DNA from: an uncultured Deinococcota bacterium
GTDB taxonomy: Bacteria; Deinococcota; Deinococci; Deinococcales; Trueperaceae
DNA: 62,660 bases
Direction: 5' to 3'
NCBI GenBank assembly: GCA_947311535.1
Contig: CAMZLP010000072.1
Span: forward strand, 1 to 62,660
The position numbers and the translations under genes are program-made. The notes under the pieces are model-generated. The model was given only the letters and a program-made list of their open reading frames with translations. It made no database searches and had not been told where the DNA came from. Below are positions 8,700-33,664 of this stretch, piece after piece (the first letter of the stretch is position 1; the number at the start of each line of letters is the position of its first letter).

Positions 8700-9080
8700 T
8701 TATGATTTTAATACTATAGCAAGCCTGTGCCCTAAAAAAACTGCTACAAGCCCTAAAACAATGCTTCCTATAATATTTATAAAAGCCAAGCTATAACGCC
8801 CATTAGAGATAAGCTCATAAGATTCTAATTCAAAAGTTGAAAAGGTGGTTAAAGCACCTAAAAAACCTGTACCTATGGCTAGTTTCCAATTTTGATTGAG
8901 ACCAAAGTAATCAGAAAATAGTAAGAATGATAATAAAAAAGCACCTACAAGATTGACGGTAAGTGTACCTAATGGGAAATTGGCTAGGCTCGAGCCCAAT
9001 CCCTTTTGTATGTAAATAGTTGCTAAATAGCGACTTAAAGCACCTAAGGCTCCGCCAATCATTATGCCAATAATTAACAT
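8700..9080 (-). CDS. crcB: Fluoride exporter CrcB/Fluc
   Basis: A 126-residue four-helix membrane protein that works as a dual-topology dimeric fluoride channel. Family signatures are GGALGALSRY at the N-terminus, GTLTVNLVGAFLL in helix 2, and the Phe-box region GFLGALTTFSTFELE in helix 3 with the Na+-coordinating TTFST segment. The ATG has a ribosome binding site AGGTGA. It is a single gene transcribed away from the alpha-2-macroglobulin cluster. I looked for a fluoride riboswitch upstream and did not find one. One GCTCGAGC palindrome (9107-9114) lies in its upstream region. Confidence 0.94.
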   Translation of the reverse strand: MLIIGIMIGGALGALSRYLATIYIQKGLGSSLANFPLGTLTVNLVGAFLLSFLLFSDYFGLNQNWKLAIGTGFLGALTTFSTFELESYELISNGRYSLAFINIIGSIVLGLVAVFLGHRLAIVLKS

Positions 9081-9210
9081 GGTCTATCACCTAGATATTG
9101 CATTAGGCTCGAGCATAACATATTCAAAGTACGAAACTGTAAATAGCTTAAGGGCTAGATAATAGCAACTATATTGTAATGAGTTCTATATGCAAAATGT
9201 GTAATATGTG

Positions 9211-9216
9211 TATAAT
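9211..9216 (+). promoter_or_regulatory. Extended -10 box before the DUF1175 gene
   Basis: TATAAT preceded by TGTG (extended -10 form) lies 12 nt before the ATG at 9229, so the leader would be only a few nucleotides long. No clear -35 box is visible. Confidence 0.5.
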
Positions 9217-9228
9217 AGTAGTTAATAT

Positions 9229-9939
9229 ATGAGACACTTGCTGGTGAAACTACTTATAATTTTATTTTTTATGACATTTGCAAGTGCATTTAGCCCACTT
9301 GATGCTGATGCTGATGGTTACCCTGATGTAGTCGAATTAAATAGCTTGCGAGAACGTGAAGCTTTTTTAGACTGGTTTTCAGCTATTGCTGAGGCACAGT
9401 ATACGGCTCCTTCTTCTGAGTGGAAATATCGAGATTGTTCTGGCTTAATTCGCTTCGCTTATATAGAGGCATTAAAAAGAAAAGATGGAGCTTGGTTTTC
9501 TAAATTCCCGTACTTGCCAAAAGTCAAAGCTATCCCCATAGAAAATTATCCAATGCCAATTATTAGCCGAAGTGTTTTTCGGGTAGATTCTGGCTCTTTT
9601 CAGCTTGATGATGTTGCCAAGGGGCGTATGGTTGGGATTGCTTCAGCTTTTGAACTTATGAAATATTCATCTAAATTCATTGGCAAGCGTCAAGAACAAG
9701 CCAAAAGGGGGGACTTATTATTCTTTATTCACCCCCTAGCCGAAGGCTCGTCTTATCATAGTATGGTCTATCTTGGTGACGGTAAAATTGTTTATCACAC
9801 TGGTGCAGATTTGCAAGATGACGGCGAGGTTCGCTTACTTAGTTTAGAGACTTTACGCAGGCATCCAGACCCTAGTTGGCACCCCGATCCAAGCAACCCT
9901 AACTTTTTGGGGTTTTACCGTTGGAAGATAGTTGATTGA
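9229..9939 (+). CDS. DUF1175 (YfaT-like) secreted protein
   Basis: Exported protein of 236 aa with signal peptide MRHLLVKLLIILFFMTFASA. The conserved core YRDCSGLIRFAYIEAL (Cys around residue 70) together with SSYHSMVYLGDGKIVYH (His about 110 residues later) resembles an NlpC/P60-like Cys-His arrangement and matches the DUF1175 family. In Escherichia coli the DUF1175 protein YfaT is encoded beside the alpha-2-macroglobulin YfaS, and here too the gene precedes the alpha-2-macroglobulin. I infer a periplasmic partner in envelope defence or peptide trimming. Activity is not known for the family. Confidence 0.8.
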   Translation: MRHLLVKLLIILFFMTFASAFSPLDADADGYPDVVELNSLREREAFLDWFSAIAEAQYTAPSSEWKYRDCSGLIRFAYIEALKRKDGAWFSKFPYLPKVKAIPIENYPMPIISRSVFRVDSGSFQLDDVAKGRMVGIASAFELMKYSSKFIGKRQEQAKRGDLLFFIHPLAEGSSYHSMVYLGDGKIVYHTGADLQDDGEVRLLSLETLRRHPDPSWHPDPSNPNFLGFYRWKIVD

Positions 9940-10015
9940 GCATATATTGACTATATATCGAGTTATGGTGCAATTTATTTGATATTGCTATAAAGTAGTC
10001 GTATTGGAGGACTTT

Positions 10016-13000
10016 ATGTCATGGATTAAACTGATTTTATTACTTGTGTTATTAGCTTTGGGCTTAGCTGGGGCTAGCTTTCAAAATGAGCTCTGGCTCT
10101 ATGGTGGTGGTACTTTTGGTCCAGATGATGAGGTTTCTTTAGAGTATTCTATGAATTCAGAACAAGATGCAAAGCTCTTGTTATATAGAATTAAAGACCC
10201 CGAAGAAATCTTAAAAATGGGTGGGCCACGTTATTTTGAAGGAGCAAATGATTTAAACCTTAAGAAAATTAGAGAAATCAAGATTGTCACCGAGCGTGAT
10301 AGACGTTGGGGAGATATTTCTTTGGGCAAGCTTAAAGTGGGTATGTATTTCGCTCAGCTCGAGTCTAGCCAAAGTAAAAGCGCTACCTTAATTTTGGTCA
10401 CAGATATTTCACTAGTAGTTAAAACAGATACCGATAATATTTTAACCTATACAGCTAATAAATACAGCGGTAAACCGATCGAAGCAACTATTTATATGGT
10501 GCAGGATAAAAAGATAGACCAGTTTGTGATAGCTAGCAAAGGTACTGCCGAAATCAAGAATGGCGGTGAAAACAATAATGAAATGGTGATAGCTGCTAAC
10601 TATGGTGATGCTTGGGCTTTTAGTGCTAGTTACTGGCGTTCTTGGGCCGTTGAAAAATCCAAAACATATATTCAAACCGATAGACCGGTTTATCGACCAG
10701 GGCACACTGTTTATTTTAAAGCAACTGCTCGCTCGGCTTCTGGCTTGCAGCCATTAGTTAATCAAGATATTAATATTACAATTAAAGATGCAAACTATGA
10801 TGATATTTATAAAGAAAGCTTTAAAACTGATGCCTACGGTAGTGTTAATGGTGAACTGATTTTAAGTGTAGAACCACCCTTGGGCAACTATCAAATAGAA
10901 ACCGAAATTGATGGTGAGTACAGCTACTCACAATTTTATGTTGAAGAATTTCAAAAACCAGAATATAAAGTTAATGTCACTACCGCAAAAGATAAAATTA
11001 TACAAGGTGAAACGGTTGAATTTGAAGTTTCAGCAGAATATTTGTTCGGTGGTGCAGTAGCTGCTGGCAAAGTTAATTACGCTGTTCTTAAGCAGCCATA
11101 TTATTATTGGGGTTATCGTTCATATTATGGTTTTTATGATGACTTTTATTACGGCGGTTACTACGATAGCGAAGTAGTAGAACGTGGTGAGGCTGTTTTA
11201 GATGAAAATGGTAAATTAGTTTTAGAATTTGAAACAAGCTTAGATGATGTTGATTATCAATATACCTTGCAAGCTGGGGTAGTTGATGAGGCAAGGCGAG
11301 AGATTAGTGCTTCAGCTAGTGCTACGGTATTTCGCTCTAATATTGTTATAAATGTGCAAGCAGACCGATATGCCTATAAAGAAGATGACAAGGTTAGTTT
11401 AACTGTTTCAATTCAAGATATTTATGGCAAGCCAATTAGTACAGATTTTAGTTTTAATACAGAGCGGTACTATTGGAGTGATAATGGCAGCGAAACTGAT
11501 AACTTAAGTAAAAAACAAGGCCATACTGATGAAAACGGTGAGGCAATAATAAGCTTTGTACCAACGAAGCAAGGTAGCTATAATATTTTTGTAAGTGCTA
11601 AAGACAGCAGCAACAGAAAAGTGGAAAGTTCTGAATATGTTTGGGTTTCTGGTAATTCTAGATGGTATTGGAGCTATGATTCATTAAATATTAGAGCAGA
11701 TAAAGAAGAATATAAACTCGGTGAACAAGCCCGTTTTGTAATTCAGTCACCAGTAGAAGATGCTTATGCTCTAATTACCCGTGAAGGGCAAGAAATTGTT
11801 GACTATGAACTCATAAAAATAAATGGTTCTGTACTCACTTATGAACTAACAGTTACTGAAGATATGAGCCCAAATAGCTATATATCGGTGGTAATAATTG
11901 GTGATGGTAGAACCTATACTGAAACGACAAACTTTAAAGTTCCACCAGATAACAAATTTTTAAATGTAGAAATAAATTCTGACAATGATACTTATGAGCC
12001 AGGCCAAGAAGGGCATTTTCAACTTAGAGTTTCTGATATTGATGGCAAAGGAGTAAGAGCCCAAGTAACTGTGGGTATTGTTGATGAGGGTATTTACTTG
12101 ATACGCAGTGAAACAAATTCAGATATACGTGGCTTTTATTATGCTTTGCGGTCTAATGTTGTCTCAACCGAGATTAGTGACTGGTACTATTTTGGTAGAG
12201 CAGATGTAGAAGAAGGTCTTGCTAGGGCAAGTAGTGCTGTTGGCAACATTGTCAGTGCGCCGGTGGTAGCAAAAGCTGAACTTAGCGATGGTGTTTTTGC
12301 CCAAGGCAAAAGTGATTTTGCAGCAGCAACGCTACGCTCTGATTTTAGAGATACTATTTTGTGGCTACCAACCCAAGAAACAAATGATGAGGGAATTGCT
12401 GATATAACTGTTACCTTTCCGGATAACTTAACCGAATGGCGACTAACTGCTCGAGCAATTACGCTTGATGATAAAGTAGGCCAAGATAACTACAGCGTAA
12501 AGACCACTTTACCAGTTATAGCAAGACTAGCTGCACCACGTTTCTTTATTCGTGGTGATGAGGCTAGTTTGCGTGTGATTGGTCAAAATAATTTAGATGA
12601 AGATTTAATTGCTAGAATTCAATTAGAAGCTCTAGGGCTTATTATTAAAGACCCATTGCAATCAGCTGCAATTTTAGCTGCTAAAAATAGAGCAACTGCT
12701 GACTTTAGAATTAAGGCCAGTGAAACAGGTACTGCTTTAGTAACTGCCACTGTGCTTACTGACCAAGCAAGTGATGCCATGCAATTGCCAATACCGGTTT
12801 TGCCTCATGGCATAAAAGATAATATTGCATGGGCAAGTAGTAATTCGGATACTTGGAACTTTAGCTTGCCTGCTAATACTGACCCAAATACTGTAAATGG
12901 CAAATTGTTTATTAGCCCATCTTTGGCCGCGGCAGTTTCGCCGGCATTGTCTTACTTGGCTGGCTATCCATATGGTTGTACAGAGCAAACCATGAGCCGC

Positions 13001-14431
13001 TTTTACCCAAGTGTATTGGCATCGCAAGCTGGTGATTTGGCTAGTTTACCTGATGATGTTTTAGAAAACTTAGATGATATGGTTGCTAAAGGTCTAAAAC
13101 GTATTTACAACTTCCAACATGATGACGGTGGTTGGGGTTATTGGAAACATGATTCTTCTAGTATATTTATTACAAGCTATGTAATTAATGGTTTATTAGA
13201 TGCTGCAAAAGCAGGTTATAGAACTCAGGATTATAGTTTAAATTGGGCCCTTGAATATTTAGAAAGAGAACTAGAAAACCCGCTTAGTAATGACAACTAT
13301 TACCGAATTGTAGATGCTGATGCTAAAGCTTATGGATATTATGCTTTGGCTCGAGCCGAACGCAATATAGATGCTTTAGGTAAACATGTGGCCGCCAAAG
13401 ATTTGTCTTCTTATGGCTTAGCTCTGAGTGTGCTGGCCTTTGCGGAAGCTGAACGAACTGTAGAAGCCAATTTGTATTTAGACGAGCTTTTAAGCCGTCT
13501 GAGTGAGTTTGAAACTGTGGCGTTTTGGAAATCAGATGTCCCTAGATACTATTGGAATGATGATCAAGTAGAGGCGACCGCTTATGGATTAAATGCCATT
13601 GCGCTGCTACGACCCAATGACCCAATTGTAGCTAAAATTGTCAACTGGCTACTCTTAGAACGCAAAGGTGATAGATGGTACTCCACCAAGGATACTGCAG
13701 CTATTGTAAAGGCTGCCTTAGACCTTGCAAAAGCAACTAATGAAGAAGCAAAAGACTTGCTAATAACAGTTAGTTTAAATGCTAATGAGATATACAGTAC
13801 AAGGCTACAGGGTCAATCAGCAGAGGGTATTGAGATAAAACTAGCTAACTTAGACCTAAATAAAAATAACTTAGTTCTAAATGTGGAAGGTCAAGGTACT
13901 GTTTATAGCAGTGCAAATATTGAGTATTTTGCCGAGCAAGATAATTTTGAGGCAAGTAATGACAATATTAAAATAAATAGAACCTTTGAGCGTTTAGAGC
14001 CTGTTTATGATAAGAAAAATCAAAATTACATCTATAAACGCAAGCCTTTAAATGCTGCCTCTGAAGTTGGTGACTATATCTTAGTAACCGTAGAAATAGA
14101 CCCACAAGATCAGTTTAGGTACGCTATTGTCAATGAACCATTGCCAGCTGGCTTTAGAGTGATAGAAAATGACCAAGTCTTTAAAATTAACGGTATGAGC
14201 CCAAGATACGGCTATGATTATTACGGTTGGAACTATTGGTATGATGGTCGTGACGTTAGAGATGAAAGGGTAGATTATTATTTCACTTATTTAGGTGACA
14301 AAGTTAGCTTTAGCTATATACTACGTGCCGAAACTCCTGGTAAATACAGTGCCCTACCAACCCAAGTTTGGCTAATGTATGCTCCAGAAATTCGGGCTAA
14401 TGGTAGCAACCAGATATTAGAGGTTAAATAA
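10016..14431 (+). CDS. Bacterial alpha-2-macroglobulin with intact thioester
   Basis: Large periplasmic protease-trapping protein, 1471 aa from the ATG at 10016, which follows GGAGG; an in-frame TTG at 10004 is less likely. A signal peptide (MSWIKLILLLVLLALGLAGA) lacks a lipobox Cys, so it is not clearly lipid-anchored. MG-type beta-sandwich repeats run through the first 800 residues (QTDRPVYRPGHTVYFK is a typical MG3 start). The thioester motif GCTEQ is intact at about residue 988, followed by the alpha/alpha toroid. The central region is Tyr-rich. The usual partner PBP1C is not adjacent; instead a DUF1175 protein precedes it and a gluzincin peptidase follows with no gap. Confidence 0.96.
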   Translation: MSWIKLILLLVLLALGLAGASFQNELWLYGGGTFGPDDEVSLEYSMNSEQDAKLLLYRIKDPEEILKMGGPRYFEGANDLNLKKIREIKIVTERDRRWGDISLGKLKVGMYFAQLESSQSKSATLILVTDISLVVKTDTDNILTYTANKYSGKPIEATIYMVQDKKIDQFVIASKGTAEIKNGGENNNEMVIAANYGDAWAFSASYWRSWAVEKSKTYIQTDRPVYRPGHTVYFKATARSASGLQPLVNQDINITIKDANYDDIYKESFKTDAYGSVNGELILSVEPPLGNYQIETEIDGEYSYSQFYVEEFQKPEYKVNVTTAKDKIIQGETVEFEVSAEYLFGGAVAAGKVNYAVLKQPYYYWGYRSYYGFYDDFYYGGYYDSEVVERGEAVLDENGKLVLEFETSLDDVDYQYTLQAGVVDEARREISASASATVFRSNIVINVQADRYAYKEDDKVSLTVSIQDIYGKPISTDFSFNTERYYWSDNGSETDNLSKKQGHTDENGEAIISFVPTKQGSYNIFVSAKDSSNRKVESSEYVWVSGNSRWYWSYDSLNIRADKEEYKLGEQARFVIQSPVEDAYALITREGQEIVDYELIKINGSVLTYELTVTEDMSPNSYISVVIIGDGRTYTETTNFKVPPDNKFLNVEINSDNDTYEPGQEGHFQLRVSDIDGKGVRAQVTVGIVDEGIYLIRSETNSDIRGFYYALRSNVVSTEISDWYYFGRADVEEGLARASSAVGNIVSAPVVAKAELSDGVFAQGKSDFAAATLRSDFRDTILWLPTQETNDEGIADITVTFPDNLTEWRLTARAITLDDKVGQDNYSVKTTLPVIARLAAPRFFIRGDEASLRVIGQNNLDEDLIARIQLEALGLIIKDPLQSAAILAAKNRATADFRIKASETGTALVTATVLTDQASDAMQLPIPVLPHGIKDNIAWASSNSDTWNFSLPANTDPNTVNGKLFISPSLAAAVSPALSYLAGYPYGCTEQTMSRFYPSVLASQAGDLASLPDDVLENLDDMVAKGLKRIYNFQHDDGGWGYWKHDSSSIFITSYVINGLLDAAKAGYRTQDYSLNWALEYLERELENPLSNDNYYRIVDADAKAYGYYALARAERNIDALGKHVAAKDLSSYGLALSVLAFAEAERTVEANLYLDELLSRLSEFETVAFWKSDVPRYYWNDDQVEATAYGLNAIALLRPNDPIVAKIVNWLLLERKGDRWYSTKDTAAIVKAALDLAKATNEEAKDLLITVSLNANEIYSTRLQGQSAEGIEIKLANLDLNKNNLVLNVEGQGTVYSSANIEYFAEQDNFEASNDNIKINRTFERLEPVYDKKNQNYIYKRKPLNAASEVGDYILVTVEIDPQDQFRYAIVNEPLPAGFRVIENDQVFKINGMSPRYGYDYYGWNYWYDGRDVRDERVDYYFTYLGDKVSFSYILRAETPGKYSALPTQVWLMYAPEIRANGSNQILEVK

Positions 14432-15025
14432 ATGAGAGGCAATAGACAATTTATAATTTGTATTGTCTATTGCCTTTTTATTATTGCTCTAAGCCAAGAT
14501 TTTAAACAAGCTAGCGATGGCTTTTTTATTATTGAAACTGCCAGTCTGGCAGATGAATATTATCTGCCAGAGGTTTTTTCTATAACAAATCAAGCCAAGC
14601 TCGATTTACAGCAAGATTGGGGTCTTAGCCTTTCTAAGGATGTTACCATTAGGGTTTACCCCAATATCTCGTCATATTCTCGGGCGACACAAATGCCTTG
14701 GTATTTTGCAGCATTGGCCAGCCCTGCTCAAAATAAAATTGATATTCAGAGATTTAGGGTGTTAGTTGAACGAGGTAGTTTAAAAGCTAGTTTACGCCAT
14801 GAGCTTTTTCATTTGGCCCAGCCTACTAATATGCCACGTTGGCAGGCGGAGGGCAGTGCTATGTTATTTGCTCATGAACTTGCTCAGGCAGAAGCGATAG
14901 CTGATATATCAGAAAGCCAGCTAAATGATTTACTTTTAAATGCTGGTTCACAAGCAGAAATACTAAGAGCTAATGCCACTGCCTTATTGTGGGTTAAAGA
15001 ATTACTAAAAGAGAAGACAGATTAA
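14432..15025 (+). CDS. Small secreted gluzincin-type metallopeptidase (peptidase MA-like)
   Basis: A 197-residue exported protein with signal peptide MRGNRQFIICIVYCLFIIALS. The zinc motif HELFH (around residue 127) plus downstream MPRWQAEGSA, supplying the third Glu ligand, is the pattern of small peptidase-MA-like gluzincins. It begins immediately after the alpha-2-macroglobulin stop codon (TAA ATG) and is translated in the same operon. Its first 16 codons are folded into a perfect intrinsic-terminator hairpin, suggesting that downstream expression is attenuated. Pairing a protease with a protease trap is notable. Substrate unknown. Confidence 0.78.
   Translation: MRGNRQFIICIVYCLFIIALSQDFKQASDGFFIIETASLADEYYLPEVFSITNQAKLDLQQDWGLSLSKDVTIRVYPNISSYSRATQMPWYFAALASPAQNKIDIQRFRVLVERGSLKASLRHELFHLAQPTNMPRWQAEGSAMLFAHELAQAEAIADISESQLNDLLLNAGSQAEILRANATALLWVKELLKEKTD
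14438..14479 (+). terminator. Terminator-like hairpin inside the first codons of the peptidase gene
   Basis: GGCAATAGACAAT (14438-14450) pairs perfectly with ATTGTCTATTGCC (14462-14474) across an 11-nt loop, followed by TTTTTA. It lies within codons 3-16 of the peptidase gene, so it can end most alpha-2-macroglobulin transcripts while still encoding the signal peptide. Confidence 0.75.
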
Positions 15026-15045
15026 AGCTTCTCTTTTATTTTTTT
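15007..15045 (+). terminator. Intrinsic terminator at end of the alpha-2-macroglobulin operon
   Basis: AAAAGAGAAG (15007-15016) pairs with CTTCTCTTTT (15028-15037), followed by A and seven T residues. The upstream arm lies in the last codons of the peptidase gene and the T run reaches into the end of the convergent dsbB-like gene. Confidence 0.8.
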
Positions 15046-15461
15046 GGCAGACTGGTCATAATAAGTAAGAATATTATTAGCAAAAAGGCAATTAATGATA
15101 ATGCTGGTATGCTCAAGAACTCAATATCAAATAAGCCAATATATTTAGTACTACAAGGAATACCAAGTTTGCACAAAGCTGGGGCACCAAAACCTGGGAG
15201 ATTTTGCTCGAGCAGATGGTAAATAGCCACAAAGCTACCTAAAACCGCAATTGGTAGAGCATACTTTATTATTCCTTTGTCTTGCTTAAAACTAGCAATT
15301 GCTAAGGTTAAAACAAAGGGATACATCAATATTCGTTGATACCAACAAAGTGTACAGGGTACAAAAAGTTTGACCTCGCTAAAATATAAACTACCACCAG
15401 TTGCAATTATTGCAATTATCCATGCAAAATATAAGCCATAGTCACTAAAGAAATCACGCAT
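15036..15461 (-). CDS. DsbB/BdbC-type disulfide bond formation protein
   Basis: Four-helix membrane protein of 141 aa that reoxidises the DsbA-like oxidase and passes electrons to quinone. The redox pair CTLC follows helix 1 (VPCTLCWYQRILMYP), and the second cysteine pair lies in the periplasmic loop GAPALCKLGIPCSTKY. It is shorter than E. coli DsbB and of the BdbC form common in Deinococcota and Firmicutes. The start overlaps the stop of the DsbA-like gene by 1 nt, so both form one operon. It converges on the peptidase gene. Confidence 0.93.
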   Translation of the reverse strand: MRDFFSDYGLYFAWIIAIIATGGSLYFSEVKLFVPCTLCWYQRILMYPFVLTLAIASFKQDKGIIKYALPIAVLGSFVAIYHLLEQNLPGFGAPALCKLGIPCSTKYIGLFDIEFLSIPALSLIAFLLIIFLLIMTSLPKK

Positions 15462-16120
15462 TATTTTTTAAGTGCAGCTTCTATAGCTTTCGAAATAAGT
15501 TCATAGTTATTTGAATTTTGGATGAGGTCACCATCAACATATACACTAGGTGTACCCTGAACTCCAGCATTCCTGCCCATATCTAAGTCATTTTGAACAT
15601 CTTTGCTATAACGTTTTTCATCAATGCAAGTACGCATTTTGACAGTATCAACATCAGGAACATATTCTTGGGCTAGCTTGGTCAAAAACTCTGGCGTTGC
15701 CCAAATTTTACTTTCATCTTGCTGTGAGCGAAATAAGACAGTTTTATATTCCCAAAATGAATCTTCACTTTGCTCGTATACACATTCAGAAGCAATTGCA
15801 GCGGTTGTTGAGTCTGGGCCAATAAATGGGAAGTTAATAAAATAAAATTCAACTTTTCCAGTTTCAATATAGTCCATTTTTAGTTTTGGTAGGTTGCGTT
15901 CTTCAAAATATTTACAAGCTGGACATTTAAAATCTTCAAAAACTACAACTTTGACTGGGGCATCTTTCTCGCCAACCGAAGGCTGACCAGTCAAGTTGAT
16001 TTTGCCAACAACGTTTTCTCCAACGGTTGCAGGTTTGTTGCTTTGGATAAAAAAGTACCCACCTAGGGCAATTAGTGCTGCAACTACTGCGGTAATAATA
16101 GTCAGTTTTTGTGTATTCAA
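15461..16120 (-). CDS. DsbA-like thioredoxin-fold disulfide oxidoreductase
   Basis: Membrane-anchored or exported protein of 219 aa (N-terminal helix ITAVVAALIALGGYFFI). The thioredoxin-fold redox site is FEDFKCPACKYFE (CPAC), with the cis-Pro loop GVQGTPSVYVDG near the C-terminus; this is the Thioredoxin_4/BdbD class. The start is a TTG placed 7 nt after GGAG. An ATG just upstream is out of frame and meets a TGA after one codon. Transcribed with the DsbB-like gene, it forms an oxidase/reoxidase pair for exported proteins. Confidence 0.92.
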   Translation of the reverse strand: MNTQKLTIITAVVAALIALGGYFFIQSNKPATVGENVVGKINLTGQPSVGEKDAPVKVVVFEDFKCPACKYFEERNLPKLKMDYIETGKVEFYFINFPFIGPDSTTAAIASECVYEQSEDSFWEYKTVLFRSQQDESKIWATPEFLTKLAQEYVPDVDTVKMRTCIDEKRYSKDVQNDLDMGRNAGVQGTPSVYVDGDLIQNSNNYELISKAIEAALKK

Positions 16121-16253
16121 TTCATTTCTCCTTTTATTCCTTTTGGAATAAGCAATCTCTAATTAATATCATAAACTAATTATTATAAATAGTAGGAATT
16201 TGACAATTCCAAAGCCAAATCTTTTTTACTGGCTAATATTTAGGATTTGCTAA

Positions 16254-17285
16254 TTATTTTTGTGGCTCAATAATTACTTTCATAGAATCATCAGCATTAA
16301 CGGTTAATTCAAAACCTTTGCCAGTTTCTGCCAAGGCTAAACGATGGGTAATTAAATCGCTTACCCTTACTCTTTTAGCTCTTATGAGCTCTAAGGCTTC
16401 AGTTAAATCAATCGGAGCTGCGGCATAAGTAGACAATAATTGTATCTGCTTTTGCCAAAATGGAAATATGTCAAAGTCAATTATAGTTCCGGGAGCCATA
16501 ATGCCATAAAGTAAGACTTTGCCACCATTTTTCACAGCGTGCATGGCTTGTTCAAAGAGGATTTTTGCACCTGCCGTAATTACAACATAGTCTACACCTT
16601 TGCCGTCTGTCTCTGCTAATACTTTTTTAATAACATCATCTTTAGCGGCATCAATTACTAAATCCGCCCCAGATTTTTTGGCAAAATCTAAGCGATATTG
16701 ACTTAGGTCGGTAGCAATTATTTTACCAGCGCCATAAGCCTTGGCGTTTCTTATTACTAATTGCCCCGACAAACCACTGCCTAGCACTAAAATACTGCGG
16801 CTTGGCTTAAGATCTAATTCTCGTAAGCCCCGAACAACACAGCCTAATGGTTCAACAAAACTGCCATCATCATAACTAACGCTATCAGGTAGCTTTATAA
16901 CACCACCTTTTTCTAGGTTTACAGCAGGCAAACGCACAAACTCACTAAAACCACCTGGGTAGTATTTGGTATTATGAATACTATGGCAAAGGCTGTGTTG
17001 ACCACGCTGGCAGTATTCGCAGTTGTTGCATGGTACATGGTGAGTGGCCACAACTCTATCACCCAATTTAAAATTTTTTACATCTTTACCAATTTTAACA
17101 ATATCTCCTGAAATTTCATGACCTAAAACTAACGGAGCTTTTTTAATACGGTACCATTCCATAACATCGCTGCCACAGATTCCGCTAGAGATGATTTTGA
17201 TTAATATCTCATCATCAAAAATACTGGGCTTTTGAGTTTCTTCTAAACGAAGATCGCTATTATTGTAGTACATTGAAACACGCAT
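16254..17285 (-). CDS. Zinc-dependent medium-chain alcohol/polyol dehydrogenase
   Basis: Oxidises a secondary alcohol with NAD. At 343 aa it has the sorbitol/threonine dehydrogenase layout: catalytic zinc ligands in GICGSD and LVLGHEISG, the four structural-zinc cysteines in CNNCEYCQRGQHSLC, Rossmann motif VLGSGLSGQ, and an Asp after the second strand (ATDLSQYR) favouring NAD over NADP. It is the last gene of the pentose operon. I infer that it oxidises C4 of a 5-deoxy- or 5-methylthio-ribulose phosphate to the dione needed by the LsrF-like enzyme. It is separated from that gene by a 26-bp palindrome. Confidence 0.88.
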   Translation of the reverse strand: MRVSMYYNNSDLRLEETQKPSIFDDEILIKIISSGICGSDVMEWYRIKKAPLVLGHEISGDIVKIGKDVKNFKLGDRVVATHHVPCNNCEYCQRGQHSLCHSIHNTKYYPGGFSEFVRLPAVNLEKGGVIKLPDSVSYDDGSFVEPLGCVVRGLRELDLKPSRSILVLGSGLSGQLVIRNAKAYGAGKIIATDLSQYRLDFAKKSGADLVIDAAKDDVIKKVLAETDGKGVDYVVITAGAKILFEQAMHAVKNGGKVLLYGIMAPGTIIDFDIFPFWQKQIQLLSTYAAAPIDLTEALELIRAKRVRVSDLITHRLALAETGKGFELTVNADDSMKVIIEPQK

Positions 17286-33190: not shown

Positions 33191-33664
33191 GTGTTAAAAG
33201 ATGCTAATTCAAAATACCTAAGTAGTTTGCAAAAGCAAGCAGAAGCAGCAAAAAAGCAAATTGTTGTTTCTGCTTTAATTCTTAACAAGGACAAAATTTT
33301 TGTGCAAAAACGATCCTCAGATCGTAAATTATTCCCAAATTGCTGGGACGTAGTGGGCGGGCATCTGGAAAAGGGCGAAAATATTATCTCGACACTCAGT
33401 CGTGAAATTAAAGAAGAAACCTCTTGGCAATTAGAAAAGATTTTAGGACATTTTTATACTTTTGATTGGCAAGCTCAAGCTCAAGAAAAACGAGAGTTTG
33501 CATTTTTGCTAATTGTGTCGGGTGATTTAAAAAAGCCTATTTTAGAAAAAGACAAACACAGTGAGTTTTTATGGCTTGCTAGTAATCAACTAGAAATCCT
33601 CAAAGATAAGCCAGATGATTTATATATTTATGAATTAGTCAAGAAAGCTTTTAGCTATTTATGA
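33191..33664 (+). CDS. Nudix hydrolase
   Basis: A 157-residue Nudix protein. The box GGHLEKGENIISTLSREIKEETSW agrees with the consensus G-x5-E-x7-REUxEE except that the final Gly is Ser. The catalytic Glu residues of REIKEE are intact. The initiator appears to be a GTG at 33191 with a weak ribosome binding site, and an N-terminal helix precedes the fold. Its stop overlaps the dusA start by 4 nt (ATGA). Substrate class (dNTP, NADH or capped RNA) is not evident. Confidence 0.88.
   Translation: MLKDANSKYLSSLQKQAEAAKKQIVVSALILNKDKIFVQKRSSDRKLFPNCWDVVGGHLEKGENIISTLSREIKEETSWQLEKILGHFYTFDWQAQAQEKREFAFLLIVSGDLKKPILEKDKHSEFLWLASNQLEILKDKPDDLYIYELVKKAFSYL

Follow-up and report, generated by a model that had tools for sequence, protein, structure and literature searches.

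Attenuation of a secreted enzyme by the terminator of the gene upstream is established for nlpD1-penA in Burkholderia (PMC6045580), whose hairpin is intergenic (the region spans 174 bp for penA), and the frd-ampC attenuator of E. coli is cited in that paper as being of the same type. In the pil1 locus of S. gallolyticus a leader peptide with variable repeats, ending immediately upstream of the terminator or running through it, opens the terminator (PMC3894217), and in M. maripaludis internal operon terminators (ioTTS), which are intergenic and mapped by Term-seq, set unequal expression of the genes in an operon (PMC10450193). Coupled ribosomes antiterminate intrinsic terminators, and E. coli terminators that lie within 100 nt of the beginning of an ORF have an efficiency near 100% (PMC7858274).

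The locus described here lies in a stretch of 62,660 nucleotides (the window), which is contig 72 (CAMZLP010000072.1) of the 2.7-Mb genome of a Trueperaceae (Deinococcota) MAG, GCA_947311535.1; the portion of this genome that was sampled has a GC content of 37%. The locus resembles nlpD1-penA and frd-ampC in that the terminator of an upstream gene would attenuate the gene for a secreted enzyme, but departs from both in that the hairpin (hairpin 1) is within the signal-peptide codons of the downstream gene, with no intergenic base, and in that a second hairpin (hairpin 2) is present in the same ORF. It shares with pil1 the geometry of a terminator that is next to the ribosome's end point or is translated through, although the upstream ORF is a 1475-residue alpha-2-macroglobulin (A2M) rather than a repeat leader peptide, it is the enzyme itself that the embedded ORF encodes, and phase-variable repeats are absent. 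As with the ioTTS, partial termination within an operon would lower the amount of the downstream product, although these are bacterial hairpins, located in coding sequence and known from sequence, rather than intergenic archaeal sites. Each principle has precedent (PMC6045580, PMC3894217, PMC10450193), whereas the embedding in coding sequence and the tandem layout are new.

The genes are arranged in the order DUF1175 protein, A2M, peptidase, and then convergent dsbB/dsbA-like genes; all features listed below are numbered by position in the window and are on the plus strand. The upstream neighbor of A2M encodes a DUF1175/NlpC-P60-like secreted protein (9229–9939; Pfam PF06672, E=1e-53). The 4.4-kb A2M gene (10004–14431) encodes a bacterial protease trap with matches to the Pfam families A2M, A2M_BRD, TED and bMG10, including the bait and TED regions, and with an intact CTEQ thioester motif (YPYGCTEQ in the translation). 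Its TAA stop (14429–14431) is followed at the next base by the ATG of the peptidase gene (14432–15025, 197 aa), such that the gap is 0 nt and the two are in the same frame. A Shine-Dalgarno-like TTAGAGG (14417–14423) is located within the A2M 3′ end, with GAGG 8 nt to the 5′ side of the peptidase ATG; SD-like motifs are found 5′ of 36% of ATG ORFs compared to 4% in the control. A terminator-like hairpin (15006–15038) spans the peptidase stop, between the convergent peptidase and dsbB genes, and is a candidate for the end of the operon.

The first-pass annotation had called the gene directly following A2M a gluzincin peptidase gene, and this assignment of the predicted secreted protein holds, because its confident AlphaFold model (mean pLDDT 91) has its best Foldseek matches in the PDB among M1 enzymes and the peptidase domains of clostridial collagenases (E 2e-4, TM about 0.5), and because the HExxH motif and E140, the Glu of WxAEG, are invariant. 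The protein itself has no match in Pfam, and two of its relatives match DUF5700 (best E 3e-4). Those relatives of the peptidase locus that carry a name belong to Trueperaceae and Meiothermus. A first scan of genome contigs with a single protein as query gave no matches. A2M and the peptidase occur in the same 6 of 39 genomes of the family, and among 111 genomes of the order A2M is present in 26, the peptidase in 24 and both in 23 (p=1.6e-19). This defines an A2M-peptidase pair in the Deinococcota and a candidate protease/inhibitor relationship.

Hairpin 1 (14438–14479) has a perfect 13-bp stem, with arms GGCAATAGACAAT (14438–14450) and ATTGTCTATTGCC (14462–14474) separated by an 11-nt loop and followed by T5 (14475–14479); the stem reaches 17 bp once outer A-T and G-T pairs are added. 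It occupies codons 3–16 of the peptidase gene, at exactly the location reported previously, where the codons specify both the n-region and the hydrophobic core of the signal peptide. The folding z-score is −8.05, and none of 200 dinucleotide shuffles is as stable. Its terminator score, on a d'Aubenton-Carafa-style scale, is +16.5, compared to a median of +12.4 for hairpins after stop codons in the genome sample, and with a stable GC-containing hairpin followed by a U-tract it has the composition of an intrinsic terminator. The stretch is genuinely coding, since the ATG abuts the A2M TAA, an SD lies upstream, and the next start-like codon is codon 88, with no in-frame ATG, GTG or TTG found between the two. 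A start codon to the 3′ side of the hairpin was considered and rejected, there being no normal start before codon 88 and the signal peptides of the relatives being alignable. The earlier proposal that one stretch of DNA serves both as coding sequence and as terminator is thus supported, with a predicted terminator of ordinary strength for this genome. Among 229 same-strand junctions with gaps of 20 nt or less in the 1.03 Mb sampled, a terminator-like hairpin is present only at that between A2M and the peptidase. With the protein fixed and the codon usage of the genome, an equally stable fold is reached by only 5 of 20,000 synonymous recodings. A search of positions 9000–16500 against Rfam gave no match up to E=1, so that this is not a catalogued riboswitch or leader RNA. 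A dispersed repeat or mobile palindrome was also rejected, as the 2.7 Mb contain just two further copies of the 13-mer, both located in coding sequence that is unrelated and neither part of a hairpin. Just 3′ of the U-tract, the sequence CTCTAA (14487–14492) is complementary to TTAGAG of the SD region; the two can pair to form a longer stem that encloses hairpin 1, which would conceal the SD. Neither this pairing nor the distance of the hairpin from the A2M stop was part of the first-pass annotation.

Hairpin 2, which had likewise gone unreported, is in the same ORF about 100 nt past hairpin 1 (14540–14579, stem region 14540–14574; codons 37–50). Its 12-bp stem gains a further 3 bp beyond a 2-nt bulge and is followed by T5, and it scores +17.9; it too has the form of an intrinsic terminator, although it reaches its U-tract only by way of the bulge. 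It encodes part of the conserved ADExYLPxVF motif using two rare CTG leucine codons, each accounting for 4% of Leu, and under the codon usage of the genome 1 of 20,000 synonymous versions folds as well. Codon choice favors both hairpins, as equally stable synonymous folds are so rare at each; together with the rare CTG codons in stem 2, this speaks for selection acting on the pairing, or at the least for its having had a directed origin. A scan that tolerates bulges, covering 8,953 T-tracts in 855 ORFs, gives four sense-oriented terminators within ORFs with scores above 15. Two of these are in the peptidase ORF, which is also the only one of the 855 with two internal hairpins scoring above 10. 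The highest of the four (in L106) probably lies 5′ of where an RNA-methyltransferase-like gene truly begins, the likely start being an ATG just past the T-run.

The suggestion that the hairpin be compared in relatives, made when it was initially described, has a mixed outcome. The stem sequence of hairpin 1 was not found in any relative, the closest peptidases being 44–52% identical, and there is no junction hairpin in the GC-rich Trueperaceae (L002, L020) or in most Meiothermus. Different hairpins do occur at the junction in the other mid-GC Trueperaceae, usually just 5′ of the ATG and often with no U-tract: that of L003 has 13 bp and a T6 ending at the ATG, and those of L004 (11 bp) and L005 (12 bp) are not terminators by score because they are without a proper U-tract. 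In the deeper-branching relative L021 the same junction carries a strong terminator, which is intergenic. Hairpins at the A2M/peptidase junction thus recur, and this genome is the only one in which a shift into the signal peptide is clear. In Meiothermus hypogaeus (L029/L048) and a sister species (L030) a hairpin with T7–T8 about 2 nt past the A2M stop spans the peptidase ATG and signal codons, with scores of 14.3 and 4.0 in L029 and L030 respectively; it is suggestive by score as a parallel case, but its fold is no better than shuffles (z −1.3) and we do not rely on it. In one further genome (L199; G069:C1:1977094–1977456) A2M is detected only as a C-terminal fragment (an open frame of 158 aa) next to a peptidase frame that is intact, and may be decaying. 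We also note by eye that CTCGAG is strikingly frequent in the sequences of the relatives L008, L009, L010, L021 and L038, in the manner of a highly iterated palindrome.

Stop-to-stem distances among 75 scored terminators in the genome sample (L053–L132) and window have a median of 23 nt and cluster at 17–24 nt, with a sharp lower edge near 17; hairpin 1, at 6 nt past the A2M stop, is one of only three at 12 nt or less. Such spacing is expected if ribosomes are close behind the polymerase, since they would mask nearer stems, and the cluster, with almost nothing below 13 nt, may indicate that transcription and translation are tightly coupled in the lineage; Deinococcota are not on the list of runaway-transcribing phyla in PMC13323073. 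The end of the A2M ORF is near enough to the stem for masking, and a ribosome on the A2M stop would, judging by the spacing, cover the base of stem 1. If hairpin 1 is as efficient as similarly placed terminators in E. coli, little peptidase would be made unless A2M ribosomes help. The predicted terminator sits at the junction of co-oriented genes; with a gap of 0 nt and the hairpin inside the ORF, no promoter could fit between the hairpin and the peptidase gene, as in an attenuator of the nlpD1-penA type. The first-pass annotation had raised the possibilities of an attenuator and of a protease held well below its trap; attenuation that keeps the protease below its trap is still the best reading, and the 6-nt distance suggests read-through that depends on ribosomes more than it does a fixed terminator.

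Our main interpretation, to which we assign a probability of roughly 0.5, is that hairpin 1 is the terminator of the A2M gene with the peptidase gene fitted over it, that read-through is partial and gated by ribosomes, and that hairpin 2 is a second checkpoint inside the ORF. Most transcripts from an upstream promoter would end at 14475–14480 and yield A2M only, with a minority reading through to give the peptidase. A ribosome at the A2M stop and close behind the polymerase would cover the base of the stem, because stem 1 begins in a zone that other terminators avoid, such that the polymerase could pass and the ribosome restart at the adjacent ATG; in the read-through RNA the SD:CTCTAA pairing would hide the peptidase start unless an A2M ribosome arrives. 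With ribosome-dependent read-through, the ratio of peptidase would be low and its production largely confined to times when translation keeps up. Probably much less protease than trap is made; the protease may be made only while ribosomes keep pace, and its expression would depend on translation of A2M to its end. The sequence features themselves (both hairpins with their U-tracts, their rarity, the codon bias, the SD pairing, the unusual stop-to-stem distance and the occurrence of A2M and peptidase together) are strongly supported, and from them we infer the functions (termination, the ratio, ribosome gating, and a peptidase that acts with A2M or is checked by it). Our preferred reading of the locus is an attenuator within the operon that lies in coding sequence and that coupled translation probably relieves. 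More tentatively, and in a form that we think doubtful, the two codon-tuned terminators in the first 150 nt would be successive checkpoints requiring first trap and then protease ribosomes close behind the polymerase, so that protease is made only in trap-making cells.

Some of the same features would serve a translational coupling device in which the peptidase start is concealed by hairpin 1 together with the SD:CTCTAA pairing, with access given only by ribosomes that complete A2M and with termination playing a small part. The pairing around the hairpin, the in-frame ATG abutting the A2M stop, the junction hairpins of L004 and L005 that are without U-tracts, and the overlapping or abutting A2M and peptidase genes of most Meiothermus all fit with this; we consider it rather unlikely, however, as the U-tract and score of hairpin 1 are those of a genuine terminator, and the device needs neither T5 nor a second hairpin with T5 at codons 37–50. 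A score above the genome median would also be expected of a plain, full-strength A2M terminator, with the peptidase silent on this transcript or expressed from a weak promoter in the A2M 3′ end, where a promoter-like GTGACA-16-TATACT (14295–14322) has 10 of 12 matches. Such matches are barely more common than in shuffles (78 vs 63.5), though, and an internal promoter must still read through both hairpins; furthermore, a peptidase that is conserved and that genomes keep alongside A2M would be expressed at some time, which makes this explanation improbable.

Template switching yields perfect inverted repeats without selection, and the palindromes could be chance or mutational by-products, formed by template switching at a quasi-palindrome and kept because they do little harm. 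The absence of the stem sequence from relatives is in keeping with such an origin, but the presence of two independent hairpins, both with sense-oriented U-tracts, in one 594-nt ORF, the use, in a conserved motif, of rare CTG codons by which stem 2 is completed, and the recurrence of other hairpins at the junction in relatives leave it, if anything, slightly more improbable still. A stable hairpin directly 3′ of a 4.4-kb gene could alternatively stabilize the 3′ end of the A2M mRNA or act as a barrier to exonucleases after processing, but this needs neither a second hairpin inside the ORF nor U-tracts, and we regard it as very improbable. Ribosome-gated attenuation, if correct, would mean that protein-coding bases, here those for a signal peptide, can double as a terminator. 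It would also mean that, with no spare DNA, an operon can fix the ratio of trap to protease and tie its second gene to translation of the first; the 17–24 nt stop-to-stem rule would serve as a simple marker, readable from genomes, of transcription-translation coupling and would flag the genes that depart from the rule.

Several other arrangements of hairpins and coding sequence were seen in this genome. A general tendency of terminators to spell signal-peptide-like segments was considered and is weak, with 26% of ordinary terminators encoding such stretches compared to 18% of base-shuffled controls. A NUDIX-like ORF in the window (33191–33664) has a 15-bp hairpin in codons 16–29, although its assigned GTG start is doubtful, and a 174-aa ORF elsewhere (L069, 3485–4009, plus strand) contains a terminator-like hairpin with a score of 20.1 near codons 39–50. 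A terminator-like hairpin followed by an ATG is a recurring junction layout, with the T-run extending into the ATG or stopping a few bases short of it in L106 (G000:C54; 4893–4915, minus strand), in L124 (G000:C67; just after 7026), and in L117 (G000:C12:20001–40000; 1345–1364).
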